A stretch of 64,000 nt of DNA from the NCBI GenBank assembly GCA_001464065.1, contig LNDN01000007.1:1-64000 (forward strand). The letters run 5' to 3'. The translations under genes were made by a program, and so were the position numbers. The notes under the pieces were generated by a model. That model saw only the letters and a list, made by a program, of their open reading frames with translations. It had not been told where the DNA came from and searched no databases. Source of the stretch: Acidobacteria bacterium Ga0077522. GTDB taxonomy: Bacteria > Acidobacteriota > Vicinamibacteria > Vicinamibacterales > Vicinamibacteraceae. This document shows, piece after piece, positions 11,624-36,135 of this stretch (within the stretch, counting starts at the first letter, position 1; the number at the start of each line of letters is the position of its first letter).

Positions 11624-14600
11624 CTACGGCAGTTTCGTCGCCAGGGCGTTGGTGCCCGCGGCCCAGTTCACGCCGCCGGCATCCGAGTACATCGCCCGCT
11701 CGACGACGATCTGGGCCGGTGTGGCCCCCACGCTCTCGACCAGCAGGCCGAACCGCTTGCCGATCGTCTCGGGGAAGTCCGATGCCGGCGCCACGTTGGA
11801 GCGACTGCTGGGGGCCAGCGCGAAGTCGCGTGTGATCGCCGGGGTGCCGTCCTCGAAGAGCACCGTCACGCGCGCGGTGCCCGCGAACGGCGACGTGTTG
11901 GCGATGAGCACGAAGGTGTCGGTGTCGCGCGGCCCGCCCACTTCGCCCTCGGCCATCGCCCACCGCGTGCCCGTCGTGGTCTCACCCGGGCTGTTGTGCG
12001 CCTCCTGCCACGTGTCGGACGTCGGCCCCGGCCACCACATCGCCCGCTCGACGATGATCGGCACGGCATTGGTCGACGTGATGCGTGTCGAGAGCGCCGC
12101 GTTCGCGAGGCCCGGTTCCTGATCCACCCAGATGTTGAACCGGCTGTTGCCCGGCACCGTGTAGGTCCGCGTGATGACCTGCCCCGTCGTCAGCAGGTAG
12201 TCGGCCTGGACCGTCGCCGGGGTCGCCTGCGGGTTGGCGATCAGGATGAACAGATCGAAGTAGTCGCCCGTGGCGCCTTCGGCGAGGAACCACTGCGTCG
12301 CCGGAGCGGTGACCCCCGCGCTCTCGTGGCCAGCGCCGAGCGGCCGCCCGGGCTGGTCGAGGTACATCGCGCGTTCGGCGATGATCGGGACGCCATTGGT
12401 GGACTCGATGATGGCCGACAGTTCGGCGTTGGCCAGGCGCGCCAGCGCCGGATCGGTCGCCCCCTCGTCGTCGACCCAGATGTTGAAGCGGCTCTGGGCC
12501 CTGACCACGTACGTCTTCGTGAGCGGAGCGCCGGACCCGAGCAGATACGTGACCGTCACCTGCGCGTCCTGCGCGTTGGGGTTCTGCACCAGGTAGAACA
12601 GGTTGAACGGGCCGAAGGTCGCGCCCTCGGCGAAGTACCACTTCGTCGCGGTGCGCGTGAGGATGCCGCGCTCGGCGTGGCTGCCGTAGCCGTTGCCGTC
12701 CCAACTCATGGTGCGGTCGGCGACGACCTGCACGTCGGCCTCGACCAGCGTCGAGAACTCGGCCGCCTCGAGGCCCGCCAGGGTCTCCACGTCGATCGTC
12801 GTCCGACTGAACGGCGGGAGGACGCGGTAGTCCCTGATCGTCGTGCCGTCACCCTTCTGGAAGCGCGTGAGCACGAGCGCCTGCGTGGCGGTCGGGTTGG
12901 CCAGCGCGAGACGCGTGTCGAAGAACGGTCCGGTCGCCCCCTCGGCCAGGTACGTGATGACGAACCCGCGGGGGTGCGTGCCCTCGGCCTGCTCCTGCGC
13001 GTTGGTCTTGCCATCGCCGTCGGGATCGCCGGTGGCGCCCTGCGCCGGGCTGTTGTTGAGCCCGTTGAGCCCGAACTGCTGCTCGAACCCGTTGCTCAGT
13101 CCGTCCCCATCGGCATCACCGGCCGGATTGGTCAGCGTGGGCGCGCCGTTGCCGATATTGCCGGTGTTGTTGCCGGGATTCGGGTCGGTGGCGCCATTGC
13201 TGGTCACCGTCGCCGTGTTGGTCCAGACCTGGCCGGGCATGACGCCAGCCGCCACGGTGGTGGCGATGGTGATCGTCGCGCTCGCGCCCTGGGCAAGCGA
13301 CGGGATGGTGATGAGACGGTTGTTGCCCGAGCCGCTGCACACACCGCCCGCCGTCGACACGCACGAGACGAACACGACCTCCGCTGGCAGATTGTCGGTG
13401 ATGACGACGTTGCTGACCGTGTCGCCTGTCGCATTGCTGGCCACGATGGTGTAGACCACCGACTCACCGGGGAGGACGTTGAACTGCGGGTGCGGCTTGT
13501 CCACCGTCTTGGTGATGGTCAGGTCGGCCTGCTGACCGATGCGCTGCAGCGTCGCATCGGCATCGCCGCCGCCATAGGTGGCCTGGAACGGCGTGACCAC
13601 GGCGAGGCGGTCGGTGCCCCCGGACGAGGACCCACCCACCCACACCTCGTCGTTGGCGGTGATGGCGACGCCCACGGGCCCGCCACGCCCGCCGCGTCCC
13701 CCGATGGGTGACGACACCAGCAGCGCACTGCCCGCGGCATTCAGCTGCACGATCATCTGGTGCGCGAAGTTGCCGGACCTGGTGTTCTGCACGGGATTGA
13801 CGACCGGGAAGTCTTCCGCAGGACGGGGTGTGGGCGCCAGCGAACCGCTGTTGACGCCAATCCACGGCTGGTTCTGTGAATCCAGCGCGATGTCGTAGCC
13901 GGTGTCCGTGTAGGCGCCGTTGATGCGCGCCCCGAAGACGAGGGCCGCGGCGCCAGAGACCGTTGGGTTGAACTTGGCGACGAGCACGTCGCTGCCGCTC
14001 GGCGCGATGGACCCGGGCAGCGTCACGGCCTGGGGGAACGTCGCCGCCGAGGAACTGGTCGAGCCGACCACGTAGATGCGGTCGGTCGCGTCGAGTGCCA
14101 TCGCGACGAGGTTCTCCTCGCCGGTCCCACCGAAATACGTGCCCCAGGTGGCCTGGTTGGCACCGGTCAATCCGAGGTCGAGCCGCAGGATGAACCCGTC
14201 GCGGCTGCCCGAGTTGCTCGACGGCAGCGCCGGCGTCACCCCGCCTGGAAACAGGTTCGTGCTCCGGGTGTCTCCTGCCACGTACACGACGTTGGCCGTG
14301 GTCCGCGAGACCCGGACGTCGGTCGCGTCCTGCGCCTCGCCACTGGACCCGCCGATGTACGTCGCGTAGGTCAGCTGGCCGGCGGCGCTGAAGCGCAGCA
14401 GGAACGCCTCCGTGTTCTGCAGGGTGGTGTCGTAGGCGCCCGCCGTCAGCGTGAAGCCTCCCACCAACGGATCGGTGGTGGTCGTCGACGTCGTCTCCCC
14501 GACGATGTAGGCGTTGCCGGCGGCATCGACATCGATGCCGTGCGGCTGCTCGAAGCCACGACCGCCGAAATAGGTCCCGTAGAGCAGGCCCCCCGACGGC

Positions 14601-15841
14601 GACAGCTTCACGTAGAAGCCGTCGGCCACGTTGCTCGGCCGTGGATTGCTGTTGTAAGTGGTGTCGAAGGCCCCGGCGGTCGTCGGAAAGTCGCCCGACT
14701 GGGTCGTGCCGGTCACATGGATGTTGCCAGCCGAGTCCAGGGCCATGCCGCCTTCGTGGTTGTAGGCGTCGAACAGCTCATAGTCGCTGCCGCCCAGCAT
14801 GGTCGAGAAGATCAGCGTAGTGGCCGAGGCGTTGAACTTCGTCACGAACACGTCGAAGTCGAAGGCCCCACTGCGGGTCGGCTTGAGGGCACCAGCAGTC
14901 GTCGGGAAATCGACGACTCCCGCCGCGTCCTGCACGAAGCCGAACAGCACGAGATTGCCCGCGCCATCGATCGCCATGTCGAGGATGCCCTCTTCGCTCT
15001 GGCCGCCGAGCCACGAGGAATAGGCGATGACCGGGTCGATCACCAGGTCACGCGAGCGGTCGTACGCGCCCACCGCGAAGCGCACCACGCCGTCGTCGAG
15101 CACGAACCGGCTGGGGATCTCGACCTGTCGGCCCTCGACCACCTGATACGTGAACGGGCGTTCGTGCGTCAGCACCCGCGTGCCGGCCTCGATGAGCAGG
15201 TCCCCGTTCGCGGCGAGAGACAGGCGGTCCGCCCCATCGATGCGCACCCCGATGGCCCGCGGGTCGTGGCCGGGCGCCACGATGAAGTCGTACTGCAGGC
15301 GGCGCTGGTTGCCGTAGTAGACGATGTCGATGCCGTCGTAGACCTCGGCGTAGCGGACCCGGGCGTGCGTGCTCACCTGCGGCTGCCACTGCTCGGCGCG
15401 GTTCCCCTTGTAGTACGAGACGACGCCGGGCTGGGTGTCGAGCGGCCGCGCCTGCGCGTCGGGTCGAGCGCCATCGAGCCGGAAGGCGAAGGCGTGGGGC
15501 TCGGCGGTGCCGTCGGCCAGCGCGACGTGGGCGCCGGCGGCGGTGAGGGCCACGCGATACCCGGCGCCGGTCCCGACGAAGTCGATCCCCGTGCCGGCCT
15601 GGCCGAGATTGCGCTCGAAATGCAGGGGCACGCCGGCCACGCGATCCAGCGCGCGGGCCCGATCGGCCGGCGCGAGGCGGCGCAGGGCGGCGGCATCGGA
15701 CGGCCGGGACGCGACTGGCGCCAGGCCGGAGGAGTCGCCGGCGCGGGGGGCCTCACGCCACGCAGGCACGGAAACGACGAGCGCGCCGACCAGCAGCGCA
15801 TGCACGACGGACGATCGACGGACGAGGGCGACTGACGCCAC
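11624..15841 (-). CDS. giant secreted SBBP-repeat / DUF11 / TSP3 protein, copy 2
   Basis: A 1405-residue paralogue of the neighbouring SBBP protein with the same order of parts: signal peptide (VRRSSVVHALLVGALVVSVP), N-terminal domain with LHFERNLGQAGTGIDFVG, SBBP beta-propeller repeats (YSSWLGGQSEEGILDMAIDG and so on), DUF11 (ADLTITKTVDKPHPQFNVLP), TSP3-like calcium segment (DADGDGLSNGFEQ, DPDGDGKTN) and four C-terminal AEGATGxxFD beta repeats. The last 450 residues are almost identical to copy 1, while the propellers differ more. GTG 15841 follows a textbook AGGAGGT. The tandem order indicates local duplication with later divergence or partial gene conversion. Confidence 0.88.
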   Translation of the reverse strand: MASVALVRRSSVVHALLVGALVVSVPAWREAPRAGDSSGLAPVASRPSDAAALRRLAPADRARALDRVAGVPLHFERNLGQAGTGIDFVGTGAGYRVALTAAGAHVALADGTAEPHAFAFRLDGARPDAQARPLDTQPGVVSYYKGNRAEQWQPQVSTHARVRYAEVYDGIDIVYYGNQRRLQYDFIVAPGHDPRAIGVRIDGADRLSLAANGDLLIEAGTRVLTHERPFTYQVVEGRQVEIPSRFVLDDGVVRFAVGAYDRSRDLVIDPVIAYSSWLGGQSEEGILDMAIDGAGNLVLFGFVQDAAGVVDFPTTAGALKPTRSGAFDFDVFVTKFNASATTLIFSTMLGGSDYELFDAYNHEGGMALDSAGNIHVTGTTQSGDFPTTAGAFDTTYNSNPRPSNVADGFYVKLSPSGGLLYGTYFGGRGFEQPHGIDVDAAGNAYIVGETTSTTTTDPLVGGFTLTAGAYDTTLQNTEAFLLRFSAAGQLTYATYIGGSSGEAQDATDVRVSRTTANVVYVAGDTRSTNLFPGGVTPALPSSNSGSRDGFILRLDLGLTGANQATWGTYFGGTGEENLVAMALDATDRIYVVGSTSSSAATFPQAVTLPGSIAPSGSDVLVAKFNPTVSGAAALVFGARINGAYTDTGYDIALDSQNQPWIGVNSGSLAPTPRPAEDFPVVNPVQNTRSGNFAHQMIVQLNAAGSALLVSSPIGGRGGRGGPVGVAITANDEVWVGGSSSGGTDRLAVVTPFQATYGGGDADATLQRIGQQADLTITKTVDKPHPQFNVLPGESVVYTIVASNATGDTVSNVVITDNLPAEVVFVSCVSTAGGVCSGSGNNRLITIPSLAQGASATITIATTVAAGVMPGQVWTNTATVTSNGATDPNPGNNTGNIGNGAPTLTNPAGDADGDGLSNGFEQQFGLNGLNNSPAQGATGDPDGDGKTNAQEQAEGTHPRGFVITYLAEGATGPFFDTRLALANPTATQALVLTRFQKGDGTTIRDYRVLPPFSRTTIDVETLAGLEAAEFSTLVEADVQVVADRTMSWDGNGYGSHAERGILTRTATKWYFAEGATFGPFNLFYLVQNPNAQDAQVTVTYLLGSGAPLTKTYVVRAQSRFNIWVDDEGATDPALARLANAELSAIIESTNGVPIIAERAMYLDQPGRPLGAGHESAGVTAPATQWFLAEGATGDYFDLFILIANPQATPATVQADYLLTTGQVITRTYTVPGNSRFNIWVDQEPGLANAALSTRITSTNAVPIIVERAMWWPGPTSDTWQEAHNSPGETTTGTRWAMAEGEVGGPRDTDTFVLIANTSPFAGTARVTVLFEDGTPAITRDFALAPSSRSNVAPASDFPETIGKRFGLLVESVGATPAQIVVERAMYSDAGGVNWAAGTNALATKLP

Positions 15842-15946
15842 GTAACCTCCTGGAGGGACCACGGTTGCCGGACTTGACCGTGGAGAGGTGGCTGGCGGCG
15901 CGGGAAACGTGACATCCCCCGGCGACGGATATACTGCGCGCCTCAG
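15842..15946. promoter_or_regulatory. divergent promoter region between SBBP copy 2 and APC permease
   Basis: A 105-bp gap serves both directions. AGGAGGT (minus strand, 15844-15850) is the SBBP ribosome-binding site. Towards the permease, GGATATACT (15925-15933) could be a -10 element about 14 bp before its ATG, but there is no convincing -35 and no Shine-Dalgarno for the permease, which may be near-leaderless. Confidence 0.35.
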
Positions 15947-17338
15947 ATGAGCGCCGCTCCCCCGCCCTCGCATCCCGGCCAGCCAGCCGGACTCGTGCGC
16001 CAGTTCGGCCTGCTTCAGGCGACGGCGCTCAACATGTCCAACATGATCGGCATCGGGCCGTTCATCACCATCCCGCTGCTGATGACGGCGCTGGGGGGAC
16101 CGCAGGCCCTGCTCGGCTGGCTGGTGGCGCTGGTGATCGTCATCGCCGACGGGCTCATCTGGAGCGAACTCGGGGCGGCGATGCCGGGCTCCGGGGGCAC
16201 CTACCAGTACCTGCGCGAGGGCTTCGGCCGCGAGAAATACGGACGCCTGATGGCGTTCCTCTTCATCTGGCAGTTCATCCTGTCGGGACCGCTCGAGATC
16301 GCCTCGGGCTACATCGGGTTCGCCCAGTACGCGCGCTACTTCTGGCCGGGGATGACGCGGGCGCACGTCATCGCCATCGCGATGACGGTCGGCGTGGTGA
16401 ACATCGCCCTGCTGTACCGTCGCATCGAGTCGGTGGGACGGCTGACGGTGACCCTGTGGACGGGCACGCTGCTGACCACACTGGCGGTGATCGTCAGCGG
16501 CGCCCTGTACTTCGATGCCGGCGTGGCGTTCGACTTCCCTCCCGGTGCCTTCAACTTCTCGCTCGGGTTCCTGATGGGCCTCGGTGCAGCGGCACGCGTC
16601 GGCATCTACGACTACCTGGGCTACTACAACATCTGCTACATCGGTGACGAGGTTCGCAACCCGGGTCGGGTGATCCCGCGCTCGATCATCATCAGCGTGT
16701 TCGCCGTCGCGCTGATCTACATCGCCATCAACCTCTCCATCATCGGTGTCGTCTCCTGGCGCGAGTTCGTGCCGGCCTCGGCCAATCCCCAGTCCGACTT
16801 CATCGTCTCGGTCTTCATGGAGCGGCTGTACGGCACGTCGGTGGCGAGCGTCTTCACGTTGCTCGTGCTCTGGACCGCCTTCGGCTCGGTGTTCGCCCTG
16901 CTGCTCGGGTACTCGCGCATCCCGTACGCCGCGGCGCTGGACGGCACGTTCTTCCGCGTCTTCGGCCAGCTGCACCCGACGCAGCACTTCCCCCACGTGG
17001 CCCTGCTCACGGTGGGCGTCCTGGCCATGCTCGGCAGCACGCTGAGCCTGGGCATCGTCATCGACGCGCTCGTGACGATGCGGATCCTCGTGCAGTTCAT
17101 CGGGCAGATGGCCGCGCTGGTGCTGCTGCGGCGGACGCAGCCGGACCTGCCGCGCCCGTTCCGCGTGTGGCTCTACCCGCTGCCGCTGATCCTCGCCCTG
17201 TTCGGCTGGCTGTTCCTCTTCGCCACGACCGATCCTTTCGTCATCGCCTTCGGCCTGGCGCTGCTGGCGGCCGGCGGGGTGGCGTTCCTGGTGTGGTCAC
17301 GCCAGACCCGGCGGTGGCCGTTCGAGGTAATCGGGTAG
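15947..17338 (+). CDS. APC-superfamily amino acid permease
   Basis: A 463-residue inner-membrane transporter with about 12 hydrophobic helices. The first helix carries NMSNMIGIGPFITIPLL, matching the glycine-rich unwound substrate-binding segment (GxGIF-type) of the amino acid-polyamine-organocation family. LGAAMPGSGGTYQYLREGFG follows helix 2, the conserved APC signature. Substrate cannot be told from sequence. The stop codon TAG (17336-17338) lies inside the first bases of a REP-like element. The next gene follows after 114 bp. Confidence 0.9.
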   Translation: MSAAPPPSHPGQPAGLVRQFGLLQATALNMSNMIGIGPFITIPLLMTALGGPQALLGWLVALVIVIADGLIWSELGAAMPGSGGTYQYLREGFGREKYGRLMAFLFIWQFILSGPLEIASGYIGFAQYARYFWPGMTRAHVIAIAMTVGVVNIALLYRRIESVGRLTVTLWTGTLLTTLAVIVSGALYFDAGVAFDFPPGAFNFSLGFLMGLGAAARVGIYDYLGYYNICYIGDEVRNPGRVIPRSIIISVFAVALIYIAINLSIIGVVSWREFVPASANPQSDFIVSVFMERLYGTSVASVFTLLVLWTAFGSVFALLLGYSRIPYAAALDGTFFRVFGQLHPTQHFPHVALLTVGVLAMLGSTLSLGIVIDALVTMRILVQFIGQMAALVLLRRTQPDLPRPFRVWLYPLPLILALFGWLFLFATTDPFVIAFGLALLAAGGVAFLVWSRQTRRWPFEVIG

Positions 17339-17401
17339 GGCCCGTTCTCCGAACGGGCCGAAGGTGTCGGCGACGGCCGGCTCGGAGAGCCGGCCCTACC
17401 C
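17333..17401. repeat. double-hairpin REP-like element with GGGTAGGGCC termini
   Basis: Two hairpins in inverted orientation: GGGCCCGTTC-TCC-GAACGGGCC, then GGCCGGCTC-GGA-GAGCCGGCC. They are bounded by GGGTAGGGCC (17333-17342) and its complement GGCCCTACCC (17392-17401). The left end supplies the TAG stop codon of the APC permease. The same double form recurs at 33464-33522, and single units at 19722-19751 and 36075-36104. It may also serve as a terminator. Confidence 0.88.
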
Positions 17402-17452
17402 AGGACCGTCGGTCAGCGTTCGGCAGTACACTGCCGCCACCCGGAGATCCGC

Positions 17453-18883
17453 ATGCCTTTCACCCCGCTGCCTCCCGCGCCCGTGCCCGGCCTGCCGGCC
17501 CTCGCGGGCCTCTGCACCCTGCACCAGGCCACCGCGCCCGGCCTGAGCGTCGACGCCACGGTGGCGCGGCTCAAGCGCCTGCACGCGGTGGCGCGCGCCC
17601 TTCACGGCGTGCTCATCGCCAGGGTGACCGACGAGCCGCAGTACGAGCTCAAGATGCTGTACAGCCACCATGCGTGGCTGCTGGCCGAGTTCGTCTCGGC
17701 CATCCGTGGCCGGGTGGGCGAGATGCGCGAGCCGCCGCTCGGGCTGGAGGATCCGCCGCCCGCCGCGCTGCAACTCGCGCTCGACGAGGTCGCCGCCGCC
17801 CCCGATGGCACGCACCTCTGCGCCGCGCTCTACACGGTGCTGCTGCCGACGCTGGACGAGGCGTGTGCCGCGCTCCATGCCGATGCGCATCCCCTGGCCG
17901 ATGCGCCGACGCGGCACCTGCTGCGGCATGCCCGGCTCGACCTGGCCGAGGCGCTGACCGCCGGGCGTCAGGCCGCGCAGGCGCTGGCCGCCGCGTCGGA
18001 GCCGTCGGCCTCGTGGCTCGAGGTGCTGCACCTGGCCATGGCCGCCGCCCACGGGCTCGACGGGACGGCGAGCGAGGCGCCGCCGTGTCCCGCGGCGCGG
18101 TTCTCGACCACCCCGCGGCCGTACGACCCGGTGCCGCGCCGTGATGCCCGCTTCTCCGATCCCTACAACATGGGCGTCAACGCAGAAGCGTTCATCTACG
18201 ACACGAGCTTCCCGCCCGAGCCGAAGCTGCTGATGCTCGCCTACAAGCGCCTGCGCGAGATCGACGTCCCCGAGATGATGGCCAGCATCATCGTCGAGAC
18301 GACCGGCAAGCCGTGGGGCTACACGCGGGACATGACGCGGCAGCTGTGGGACGAAGCCCGCCACGCGATGATGGGTGAGGTGCTGTTTGCCGACCTCGGC
18401 GTCGACTGGCCGGCGCTGGTGCGCGTCAACTTCACGTGGTCGCTCGGGCTGAACACGCAGATCACCGCGCTCGAGCGCCACGCCGTCCTGTATTTCATCG
18501 AGCAGGGCCTCATGCCGCGCCATGGCAAGCGCTACGAGTGGGAGATAGCCCAGGCGGCCGGCTCGCCGCTCGCCATCACGTTCCAGGACTACGACTGGGC
18601 CGACGAAGTGCTGCACGCCCGCATCGGCAAGCAGTGGTATGTCTCGGCGATGCCGAGCCAGACCGAGGCCCTGCGCGCCGGCGATCGCGCGTGGTCGCGT
18701 GTCCTCATGGACTGGACGGCCTGGCAGCGCGACGGCCTCACGACGCACGAGAACTGGTGGCCGGCGCTATATGCCGACGCCTGTCAGCGGCTCGGCTGGA
18801 CGCCCGACCCGCGCGTCGCCGCGTTCGACACCTCCTACGCCGACCAACGCGCCGACCTGAAGTCGGTCAGTCACTCGGGATAA
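17453..18883 (+). CDS. uncharacterised ferritin-like di-iron-type protein
   Basis: A 476-residue soluble, helix-rich protein that I cannot place in a named family. The C-terminal half has the spacing of a ferritin-like four-helix di-iron site: E274/E282 in PEMMASIIVETTG, then E301-ARH304 in WDEARHAMMGEV, E341-RH343, and E385-VLH388 in DWADEVLHARIG. Two ExxH pairs on separate helices suit metal binding. The N-terminal half is Ala/Leu-rich helical (residues 35-200), possibly a degenerate second bundle. ATG 17453 has GGAG 6 bp upstream. It ends 7 bp before the glycerol facilitator gene, so it is probably cotranscribed with glpF-glpK. Function unknown. Confidence 0.75.
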   Translation: MPFTPLPPAPVPGLPALAGLCTLHQATAPGLSVDATVARLKRLHAVARALHGVLIARVTDEPQYELKMLYSHHAWLLAEFVSAIRGRVGEMREPPLGLEDPPPAALQLALDEVAAAPDGTHLCAALYTVLLPTLDEACAALHADAHPLADAPTRHLLRHARLDLAEALTAGRQAAQALAAASEPSASWLEVLHLAMAAAHGLDGTASEAPPCPAARFSTTPRPYDPVPRRDARFSDPYNMGVNAEAFIYDTSFPPEPKLLMLAYKRLREIDVPEMMASIIVETTGKPWGYTRDMTRQLWDEARHAMMGEVLFADLGVDWPALVRVNFTWSLGLNTQITALERHAVLYFIEQGLMPRHGKRYEWEIAQAAGSPLAITFQDYDWADEVLHARIGKQWYVSAMPSQTEALRAGDRAWSRVLMDWTAWQRDGLTTHENWWPALYADACQRLGWTPDPRVAAFDTSYADQRADLKSVSHSG

Positions 18884-18890
18884 CCCCACG

Positions 18891-19685
18891 ATGCGTGAAG
18901 CCCTCGCGGAATTCTTCGGTACGGCCATCCTGATCACCTTCGGCGTGGGGGTCGTCGCGCAGACGGTCCTCAGCGGCAACACGGCGGGCAGCCCGCTCGG
19001 CATCCACCTCTGCTGGGGCATCGCGGTGATCCTCGGCGTGTATGCCTCGGCCGGCGTCAGCGGCGCCCACCTCAACCCGGCCGTCACGCTCGCCCTGGCG
19101 CTGCGCCGTGGGTTCCCGTGGCGCCGGGTCGGTCCCTACGTGATCGCCCAGGTCCTCGGCGCCTTCGTCGGTGCCGCGATCGTCTACCTCACGTACCGCG
19201 AGGCCTTCGCCCCGCTGGATGGCGGCGTGCGGCAGATCCTCGGGGCGCAGGGCACGGCCGGCATCTTCGCCACCTATCCGGCGGCGTACCTCTCGACCTT
19301 CGGGGCGTTCGTCGACCAGGTGATCGGCACGGCGCTGCTGGTGGCGATGGTGTTTGCCATCAGCGACGAGCGCAACGCGCCGCCGGCCGCGTCGCTGGCC
19401 CCGGTGTTCGTGGGCCTCACGGTGATGGCCATCGGGATGGGCTTCGGCGTCAACGCCGGATACGCCATCAATCCGGCGCGCGACTTCGGCCCGCGGCTGT
19501 TCACCGCCCTGGCGGGATGGGGTGGCGGTGTGTTCACGGCGGCCAACGGCTACTGGTGGGTGCCCATCGTCGCGCCCTGCGTCGGTGCGGTGGTCGGCGG
19601 TACGGCCTATGACCTGTTCATCCGCGCGCATCACCCGGCGCAGACCAATCGCCTCGCCGACCCGATTCAGCGCGTCGAGCGATAG
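18891..19685 (+). CDS. glpF: glycerol facilitator (aquaglyceroporin)
   Basis: A 264-residue inner-membrane channel of the MIP family. It has six helices plus two half-helices with NPA boxes: [14 protein letters not shown] (about residues 60-73) and [12 protein letters not shown]. The aspartate directly after the second NPA (NPARD) is the mark of glycerol-conducting GlpF rather than water-specific aquaporin. It begins 7 bp after the ferritin-like gene and is followed by glycerol kinase, which traps the imported glycerol as glycerol-3-phosphate. Confidence 0.94.
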
Positions 19686-19690
19686 AGGAC

Positions 19691-19751
19691 GACGCCTCGC
19701 CGAGGCGTCAGCGGCGGCCACGACGGCCGGTTCGGAGAACCGGCCCTACCC
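19691..19751. repeat. two palindromic repeats between glpF and glpK
   Basis: GACGCCTCG-C-CGAGGCGTC (19691-19709, the same core as at 7074-7104) is followed by one REP-like unit GACGGCCGGTTC-GGA-GAACCGGCC ending in CTACCC (19722-19751). The pair fills the 83-bp gap and starts 5 bp after the glpF stop. It could attenuate or process the glpF-glpK transcript. Confidence 0.85.
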
Positions 19752-19768: not shown

Positions 19769-21259
19769 ATGACCTACGTCCTCGCTCTCGATCAAGGCAC
19801 CACGTCCAGCCGCGCCATTCTCTTCGGGCGGGACGGACGCGTGGTCGCCCAGGCCCAGCAGGAGTTCCCGCAGATCTTCCCGGGACCCGCGCTCGTCGAA
19901 CACGATCCGGAAGCCATCTGGTCCTCGCAGTTGGCCGTGGCCAGGGAGGTGATGGCCAAGGCAGGCGCCACCGCGGCCGACATCGCCGCCATCGGCATCG
20001 CCAACCAGCGTGAGACGACCGTGCTGTGGGAGCGCGCCACGGGCAAGGCCGTGGCGAATGCCATCGTGTGGCAGAGCCGCGTCAGCGCCGGCATCTGCGA
20101 TCGCCTGAAGCAACAGGGGCACGAGGGCCTGATTCGCCAGAAGACCGGTCTGGTCGTCGATGCGTACTTCTCGGGCACGAAGGTCAAGCACCTGCTCGAC
20201 GAGCACGAGGGGCTGCGGGCCAGGGCCGCGCGCGGCGAGGTGCTGTTCGGGACGATCGAGACCTTCCTCCTGTGGCGCCTCACCGGCGGCGCCATCCATG
20301 TGACCGACGTCAGCAACGCTTCGCGCACGCTGATGTTCAACATCCACACCCTCGAGTGGGACGACGACCTGCTGGCGCTGCTCGACGTGCCGCGGGCGAT
20401 GCTGCCCGAGATTCGCAGCAACAGCGAGGTCTACGGGCACACCACGCCGGACCTGTTCGGTGCCGCGATCCCGATCGCCGGCGCGGTCGGCGACCAGCAG
20501 GCGGCGCTCTTCGGCCAGGCCTGCTTCGAGCCGGGCAGCGCCAAGAACACCTACGGGACCGGCTGCTTCATGTTGATGAACACGGGCGACACGCCGGCTC
20601 CTTCGAAGCACGGGTTGCTGACGACGGTGGCGTGGCAGCGCGGCTCGGAGGTGACCTACGCCCTCGAGGGCGCCGTGTTCATCGCCGGTGCCGTGGTCCA
20701 GTGGCTGCGCGACGGGCTGAAGCTGATTCCCACGTCGGCGGACGTCGAACGCCTGATGCTCGAGTCCACCGACGCCGACGGCGTGCTCCTCGTGCCGGCG
20801 TTCGTCGGTCTCGGCGCTCCGTACTGGGATCAGTACGCCCGCGGCCTCGTGATTGGCCTGACGCGCAACACGACGGCGTCGCATCTGGCGCGCGCGGCGG
20901 TCGAGTCGATGGCCTACCAGACGCGCGACGTGCTCGAGGCCATGCAGCAGGACTCCGGCATCACGTTGTCGAGCCTCAAGGTCGACGGCGGCGCCACGGT
21001 CAACGCGCACCTCCTGCACTTCCAGGCCGACCTGCTCGGCGTGCCGGTGCGCCGCCCGGCCGTCGGCGAGACGACGGCCCTCGGCGCGGCATACCTCGCC
21101 GGCCTCGCCGTCGGCTACTGGAACGATCTCGAGGACGTGCGCCGGAACTGGGCGCTGGACCGCGAGTTCGCCCCGTCCATCGACCAGACCGAACGCGACC
21201 GCCGCTATCGCCGCTGGCAGCGCGCCGTCGAACGATCGCGGGACTGGGACAAGGAATAA
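19769..21259 (+). CDS. glpK: glycerol kinase
   Basis: A 496-residue FGGY-family carbohydrate kinase, the usual GlpK length. It phosphorylates glycerol with ATP to sn-glycerol-3-phosphate. The N-terminal ATPase motif [14 protein letters not shown] stands at residues 6-19, [13 protein letters not shown] is the canonical second motif, and [20 protein letters not shown] with the C-terminal phosphate loop completes the family pattern. The TAA stop (21257-21259) overlaps the first base pairs of the AATTCAG element downstream. Together with glpF it gives glycerol uptake and entry into metabolism. Confidence 0.96.
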
Positions 21260-32833: not shown

Positions 32834-33645
32834 CGATGCCGTGGGCGCAGCTCGCCGTCCGTGAAGCGCTCGTGCTGCCGCTGTTGCTGATCGGCGTGGC
32901 GGCCGGCGGCGGCTTCCGCAGCGGGGTGACTGATGGCGCCTGGCGCTTCCTGCCGCCGACGCCGATGGCGCTGGTGCTCGGCGTGCTGCTGGTGGGCGTG
33001 CTCGTGCGCACCGGCGTGCTGGCACCGTGGACGCTCGTCGGCCCGCATCGACACGGCCTCGCCAACGCCAACGGCGCCATGCTGCTCGCCACGCTCCTGC
33101 TTGCGTCCTCGCAGGTCTTCACCGCGCTGTCGCCGGAGTCCGGACTGCTGCAGGTGCTGGCCTCGGTCTTCTTCCTGCTGTTGCTCGTCAACACGCTGGC
33201 GGCCCAGCCCACCCGCGCACGCGCGATGCAGAGCCTCGGCGTGGTCCTGCTCTCGGCATTCGTGCTGAAGTACGTGATCCTCGACGCGCTCTACGCCCCG
33301 GAAGGCAGCCTCGCGCGCAAGGTGGTGACGACGCTGCTCGAAGGCGTGTCGCTCGGCGCCCTCGGCTACACGTCGCACGGCGCCGCCACGGCCTACGTCG
33401 CCTTCCTCGTGGTGCTGCTCTACCTGTTCGCGCTGGTGCTGCTGCCGGGGGATGACGACGATCGGGTAGGGCCCGTTCTCCGAACGGGCCGTGACGGCCG
33501 GCTCGGAGAGCCGGCCCTACCCAGAGCAGAGCCGGCCCGACCCAGAGGCGAGCCGTCCCTCCCAGGCGAGACGTCGCTGCCGGCCCTCACTGGCGCGCGC
33601 GCCAGCGGTGCACCAGCGGCACGGCCAGATCCGGCCGATCACTGA
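32830..33645 (+). CDS. multi-pass membrane protein with repeat-derived tail
   Basis: A 271-residue protein of which residues 1-212 form about six transmembrane helices (EALVLPLLLIGVAAGGG, MALVLGVLLVGVLVRTGVL, LLQVLASVFFLLLLVNTLA, TAYVAFLVVLLYLFALVLL). No family is recognised. After GDDDD the frame continues through a double-hairpin REP-like element (33464-33522) and further repeat-like sequence, giving an Arg/Pro/Gly-rich tail of about 58 residues that overlaps the convergent GDPD gene by 59 bp. The native end was probably near residue 213. Overlaps the preceding gene by ATGA. Confidence 0.7.
   Translation: MTMPWAQLAVREALVLPLLLIGVAAGGGFRSGVTDGAWRFLPPTPMALVLGVLLVGVLVRTGVLAPWTLVGPHRHGLANANGAMLLATLLLASSQVFTALSPESGLLQVLASVFFLLLLVNTLAAQPTRARAMQSLGVVLLSAFVLKYVILDALYAPEGSLARKVVTTLLEGVSLGALGYTSHGAATAYVAFLVVLLYLFALVLLPGDDDDRVGPVLRTGRDGRLGEPALPRAEPARPRGEPSLPGETSLPALTGARASGAPAARPDPADH
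33464..33522. repeat. double-hairpin REP-like element inside a gene's 3' end
   Basis: GGGTAGGGCC (33464-33473) to GGCCCTACCC (33513-33522) with the same two hairpins as 17333-17401 but a shorter centre. The bases before it (ATC) match those before the 17333 copy. There the element's TAG ends the gene; here the upstream gene meets it in a different frame, reads through, and gains an unnatural tail. Further short GAGCCG/CCCTCCC pieces follow to about 33570. Confidence 0.88.
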
Positions 33646-36040: not shown

Positions 36041-36135
36041 ATGCCGCGATGCCGAATGCCGAAGGCCGCGAGATGGGTAGGGCCGGCTCTCCGAGCCGGC
36101 CGTCGCCTGCAACCCCGAAGGCCGCATGACGAAGG
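36041..36135. repeat. ATGCCGA heptamers flanking one REP-like hairpin
   Basis: Starts at the base after the ATPase stop: ATGCCGCG, ATGCCGA, ATGCCGA, AGGCCGC (36041-36069). Then comes the 30-bp hairpin unit GGGTAGGGCCGGCTC-TCC-GAGCCGGCCGTC type (36075-36104, written here with its loop), then AAGGCCG-CATGACG-AAGGCCG up to about 36140. It fills the gap before the VWA gene; the GTG start lies just past it. Confidence 0.8.

Follow-up and report, generated by a model that had tools for sequence, protein, structure and literature searches.

The 476-residue protein P0001, encoded at 17453-18883 (+) of the stretch of DNA analysed here (the window, 64,000 nucleotides), is best explained, with a probability of roughly 0.6, as a stand-alone non-haem diiron oxidase or oxygenase that consists of one catalytic and one degenerate scaffold bundle and arose by tandem duplication. 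According to this model, a four-helix domain related to DUF455 would have been duplicated in tandem to give P0001. The C-terminal copy would bind two irons through E269 in helix A, E301 and H304 in helix B, E350 in helix C, and E385 and H388 in helix D, and the diiron centre in this half would activate O2 and oxidise a substrate. The ligand-free N-terminal copy would be its partner bundle, lending shape and stability to the half with the active site. The identity of the metal, the O2 chemistry and the scaffold role of the N-terminal half are what we infer from the fold and residue patterns described below.

P0001 is a real conserved protein with an ATG start, relatives in other genomes and a well-defined AlphaFold2 model, and the reading frame of 476 residues lying 7 bp from glpF, as given in the first-pass annotation, was confirmed. 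Long open frames also run antisense to this region, at 11624-16996 (-) over the upstream permease gene and at 17396-18748 (-) over P0001 itself, which is typical of high-GC coding DNA, and the true start of a 1790-aa minus-strand frame is probably far downstream of its first GTG.

The AlphaFold2 model of the whole protein (pLDDT 91.9, pTM 0.91) contains two four-helix ferritin-like bundles. The N-terminal bundle comprises residues ~33-198 (17549-18046, +) and is delimited by the model helices, VIA-align matches, profile-profile homology and residue counts; the C-terminal bundle comprises residues ~255-417 (18215-18703, +) and is delimited by the model helices, VIA-align matches and six invariant ligands. 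The four-helix core, on which the earlier reading as a ferritin-like protein depended, is therefore present in both halves of the predicted structure. In VIA-align the N-terminal domain matched bacterioferritin, Dps-like proteins, aldehyde-deformylating oxygenase (ADO), the beta subunit of toluene-4-monooxygenase (T4MO) and VlmB with Z-scores of 15-17 and rmsd values of 2.2-3.4. The C-terminal domain, modelled alone with a pLDDT of 86.5, matched ferritins, Dps and multicomponent monooxygenases with Z-scores of 8.5-9.8, where values in the range of 9-10 can reflect just a common helical arrangement. Neither the whole-protein nor the C-domain model had a Foldseek match at E <= 0.001; the top rank for the C-terminal domain was the alpha subunit of soluble methane monooxygenase (E 0.028, probability 1.00). 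The weak Foldseek matches of this domain also included AetD and TenA, from the haem-oxygenase-like diiron oxidases and the TenA fold, whose ligand arrangement differs from the E, ExxH, E, ExxH set.

This set is found in P0001 in the C-terminal domain only. The two ExxH pairs reported previously are present at E301/H304 and E385/H388, together with a third at E190/H193 that had not been listed. As at least two ExxH motifs occur in 24% of 5000 shuffles of P0001 (mean 0.97), their number alone proves nothing; the observation counts as real because E301, H304, E385 and H388 are invariant in 107/107 aligned relatives. The same holds for E269 and E350, so that all six residues are retained throughout, distant paralogues included, and the neighbouring D300 and D384 are likewise invariant in 107/107. 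These rows (89 from the family, 4 from its sister subfamily and 14 from tandem paralogues) were chosen for alignment, with weak hits elsewhere left out. Further glutamates at helix spacing had also been proposed, which was correct for E269 and E350 (107/107); E274 and E341 were rejected as ligands by helix spacing and by their loss in paralogues. In the AlphaFold2 model the ligands fall on helices 255-282, 288-315, 339-352 and 372-395, and residues 41-191 of the C-domain model align on residues 3-145 of E. coli bacterioferritin (4cvr). Measured against the ligands of that protein, which we take to be E18, E51, H54, E94, E127 and H130, the six P0001 residues are in register with offsets of 37, 36, 36, 42, 44 and 44, compared with 38 and 46 at the ends of the alignment. 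From these helix positions and the collinearity with bacterioferritin, the six residues would be expected to cluster in space. The proposal of a ferritin-like diiron core is thus supported by the predicted fold and the conservation of its ligands, and the four-helix core of the model together with the six-ligand set would place P0001 in the ferritin-like superfamily.

Ferritin-like folds also serve iron storage and peroxide removal, and the main rival explanation is accordingly an iron-handling or peroxide-scavenging protein, that is, a ferroxidase or a Dps- or rubrerythrin-like protein. In type, the six ligands correspond to those of bacterioferritin, bacterioferritins and Dps proteins are numerous among the structural matches, and bacterioferritin shares both the four-helix fold and the order E, ExxH, E, ExxH with P0001. 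Because the site of E. coli bacterioferritin uses the same six ligand types, the ligand set cannot tell an oxygenase from a ferroxidase. However, the bacterioferritin subunit is a single bundle, whereas P0001 has two, one of them without ligands, and a chain of 476 residues in which a metal-free half is fused to the other is generally unlike the one-bundle subunits of ferritin cages. In addition, invariance in the family extends to many residues other than the ligands (e.g. H343, E362, D379, D381 and H432, and E65 and E90 in the N-terminal domain), and this suggests a specific pocket. A role in iron handling is therefore regarded as unlikely.

The nearest named family is DUF455 (PF04305), in agreement with the earlier description of P0001 as unassigned, as there is no close named family and the DUF455 match (20.5 bits, E 4e-4) does not reach the gathering cut-off of 34.3. 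It is the C-terminal bundle that aligns to the DUF455 profile, at positions 80-205 of 247. In an alignment of 45 members, made up of P0001 and 44 of the best 80 of 426 relatives, a weak DUF455 match was obtained for 44/45, and DUF455 was the best Pfam match over all members (E 1.2e-5). More distant sequences pass the cut-off, namely the separate C-type subunits at locus L109 (5308-6114 and 6114-6851; 95.5 and 92.4 bits) and the tandem paralogues at L121 and L122 (48.0 and 53.4 bits), and the six ligand columns are common to P0001 and these DUF455-passing sequences in the alignments. As P0001 is below the cut-off while split subunits and tandem paralogues exceed it, P0001 is, judged by sequence profiles, a distant relative of DUF455 through these intermediates and not a member. 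DUF455 itself is a single-domain ferritin-like family with one bundle, whereas P0001 has two bundles, many extra invariant residues and a long C-terminal tail.

Other searches did not connect P0001 to a named family or a studied protein. NCBIfam gave nothing above chance for P0001 and the 44 relatives, PADLOC gave nothing for P0001, and plasmid and phage sequences contained no match. Single and profile searches of PDB sequences returned nothing convincing, the best profile match having an E-value of 0.02 over 48 residues. Literature searches on DUF455, COG2833 or PF04305 and on tandem ferritin-like or diiron proteins found no functional study of the family, and no characterised relative of P0001 was found. 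One paper (PMC4520260) lists DUF455 with the families that designed sequences connect to SCOP, in a passage that does not mention ferritin.

The N-terminal half had been described as fitting no family, which has to be corrected: it is a degenerate ferritin-like duplicate, as indicated by its VIA-align matches and by comparison of N-terminal and C-terminal profiles. With paralogues and split subunits added, the two profiles aligned over 156 columns with a probability of 96.7 and a score of 71.0, compared with 10.6 for a reversed control and at most 12.9 in 20 column shuffles. When the halves were compared within the narrow family alone (hhalign), the duplication was undetectable (probability 0.1), and it emerged only with the broader profile. 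A47, L77 and F80 of P0001 align with E269, E301 and H304. The N-terminal column matching E269 holds E in 13/14 tandem paralogues and A, L, F, W, C or G in 89/89 family members, and the column matching E301 holds L, A or C across the family. Because the profiles align and the ligand columns are substituted in the family, the N-terminal half is, by these profiles, a duplicate of the C-terminal domain that has lost its metal ligands.

A diiron bundle paired with a homologous bundle that lacks metal is also found in PaaA/PaaC and in the alpha and beta subunits of bacterial multicomponent monooxygenases, where metal-free PaaC supports PaaA and the beta subunit supports alpha, and fold matches of P0001 include both kinds of bundle. 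In these systems, however, the bundles are separate subunits, whereas P0001 carries both in one chain with no reductase or effector genes identified alongside. The fold matches of the C-terminal domain are weak, and P0001 and its 44 relatives gave no Pfam match to the catalytic families of multicomponent monooxygenases or PaaAC.

At least 426 relatives were found when one genome per GTDB species was searched. The best 80 of the 426 are 54-61% identical to P0001 in the best segment and, with groups counted on the rows of the tree, belong mostly to Verrucomicrobiota, besides a few from Planctomycetota and one from Abditibacteriota. When the alignment served as query, at least 16/240 genomes of Verrucomicrobiota had any match (9 at E < 1e-170, seed genome included), as did at least 7/199 of Planctomycetota (one strong, which is the seed genome, and one intermediate) and at least 10/193 of the host class (6 strong, 3 from the subfamily and 1 weak). 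P0001 alone as query matched at least 10/297 genomes of the host phylum, 4 of them strongly. In a quick tree of 93 rows, acidobacterial sequences stood at separate places within or beside the part dominated by Verrucomicrobiota. The host genus and its sister genus were apart, the former grouping with two planctomycetes (support 83) and the sister-genus genome G545 with G491 (support 98). These separate positions would suit repeated transfer, or alternatively shared ancestry followed by losses, and several of the supports are modest. One member (L060), on a contig from a metagenome bin titled Klebsiella pneumoniae, groups with a Verrucomicrobiota row (support 99), and the title is probably a mislabel. 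Chthoniobacter flavus, which can be grown in culture, also has a member (L038).

In the window, P0001 lies next to genes of glycerol uptake. Its stop codon is followed after 7 bp by a glpF-type MIP channel (18891-19685, +; PF00230, 169.7 bits) and then by an FGGY kinase (19769-21259, +; PF00370, 246.6 bits; PF02782, 160.3 bits) that is probably, by context, the glycerol kinase glpK. Upstream lies an amino-acid permease (PF13520, 148.6 bits), and a scan of 17200-18950 for promoters and terminators found none. In the gap between permease and P0001 (17339-17452, +), a dispersed palindromic REP-like element occurs twice, with motif matches at 17334 and 17383, and the predicted RNA fold shows two hairpins there (z -2.39). 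This element, with the core CGGAGARCCGGCCCTACC and often in inverted pairs, was matched 6 times in the window, where 0 matches were expected, and the motif scan located it at 17334-17400, 19733-19750, 33465-33521 and 36076-36093; the genome contains 88 exact copies and 0 of a reversed control. The copy at 19733 separates glpF from the FGGY kinase.

A function connected with glycerol or with products of its oxidation, which had been suggested from this arrangement, could at least apply in the host genus, where the gene stands directly before glpF at short spacing in 5/5 genomes. Outside this genus the link is not kept. In the sister genus, G545 has the gene and glpF on different contigs (C17 and C33) and G544 has glpF without the gene; in G780, the subfamily member and glpF are likewise on different contigs (C12 and C7). 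The distributions also differ, as glpF occurs in 37/80 genomes of the order, many of these without the gene, compared with the gene or a relative in at least 10/193 of the class. The examined flanks of 80 loci from other organisms contained neither glpF nor glpK, and among all 108 loci searched, many of them shortened by contig ends, glpF/glpK matches were obtained at host-genus loci only. The adjacency is host-genus-specific and, within one genus, can be accounted for by common descent. The conserved link with glpFK thus holds for glpF inside the host genus and fails in the sister genus and beyond, leaving glycerol unsupported as a general role and, even for the host genus, distinctly improbable.

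No other partner gene takes its place. Among 78 loci of the P0001 family no conserved partner was found, the commonest neighbour cluster occurring in 8/78, and eight cluster representatives that were scanned are unrelated genes (SLBB, RecJ, Wzz/ParA-like, FHA, CrcB, NusB, PHP and SRP54). A reductase, ferredoxin or effector gene was not identified beside the family in the recurrent clusters of these 78 loci or among the single-occurrence neighbours, which were scanned in part. Neighbours were taken from a simple codon-based gene caller, as antisense ORFs in high-GC genes had distorted a first clustering. Among the 86 loci and the window, there were nine in which the caller did not recover the focal gene, and these were left out of the neighbour counts (L003, L006, L022, L023, L028, L049, L066, L081 and L115). 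As the protein is highly conserved across several phyla and yet has no operon partners, its substrate may well be a compound common in cells and not glycerol.

Distant relatives occur in more structured surroundings. In three loci from other genomes of the host phylum, the parts of P0001 are separate genes, one N-type (179-185 aa) and two C-type; these ORFs are adjacent in L109 and L111, and in L110 a 350-aa ORF sets one C-type gene apart. The small operons in question (L109 3783-8411, L110 4647-8253, L111 4291-7855) comprise an HPr-kinase-like protein, the N-type subunit, two DUF455-type subunits and an S24/S26-type peptidase, assigned by Pfam for L109 (HPr_kinase_C-like, 25.3 bits, under the cut-off of 33.3; Peptidase_S24, 33.0 bits, cut-off 23.3) and by eye for L110 and L111, and they look like a peptide-modification cluster. 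In Verrucomicrobiota, a tandem paralogue whose first bundle retains ExxH in the last helix adjoins a PhyH-family dioxygenase (L121 4925-7259, Pfam 48.7 bits; L127 3554-5993, by eye). When ten proteins, neighbours or relatives of the distant members, were scanned against Pfam, 8/10 had no match at E 0.001; the remaining two were a beta-lactamase-like protein beside the member at L135 and one that weakly matched DUF5060. Perhaps, by analogy with the split relatives of L109 and the tandem paralogue of L121, P0001 could be an oxygenase that modifies peptides or natural products. These relatives are distant, however, and no such neighbours recur at the 78 loci of the P0001 family, so that this too seems improbable. 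A non-catalytic structural or sensory metalloprotein, for which the already degenerate half of P0001 might speak, is very improbable given that the full ligand set with D300 and D384 is retained in all 107 relatives.

Based on these comparisons, the diiron oxidase or oxygenase remains the preferred reading of P0001. Its family, with at least 426 relatives, is highly conserved in several phyla and lacks a convincing named family. A natural series is formed by the separate subunits, the tandem paralogues, whose first site is partly retained, and the fused form with a dead first half; it offers a way to follow the evolution of a metal-free bundle that accompanies a diiron oxygenase, and the six ligand residues are named as targets for mutation. 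More tentatively, P0001 may be a pseudo-heterodimeric diiron oxygenase, with one catalytic and one dead bundle fused in a single chain, that catalyses a so far unrecognised O2-dependent reaction of some metabolite or macromolecule of wide occurrence. It would do so in Verrucomicrobiota and, with a patchy distribution, in Planctomycetota, Abditibacteriota and Acidobacteriota, which it may have reached more than once by horizontal transfer.
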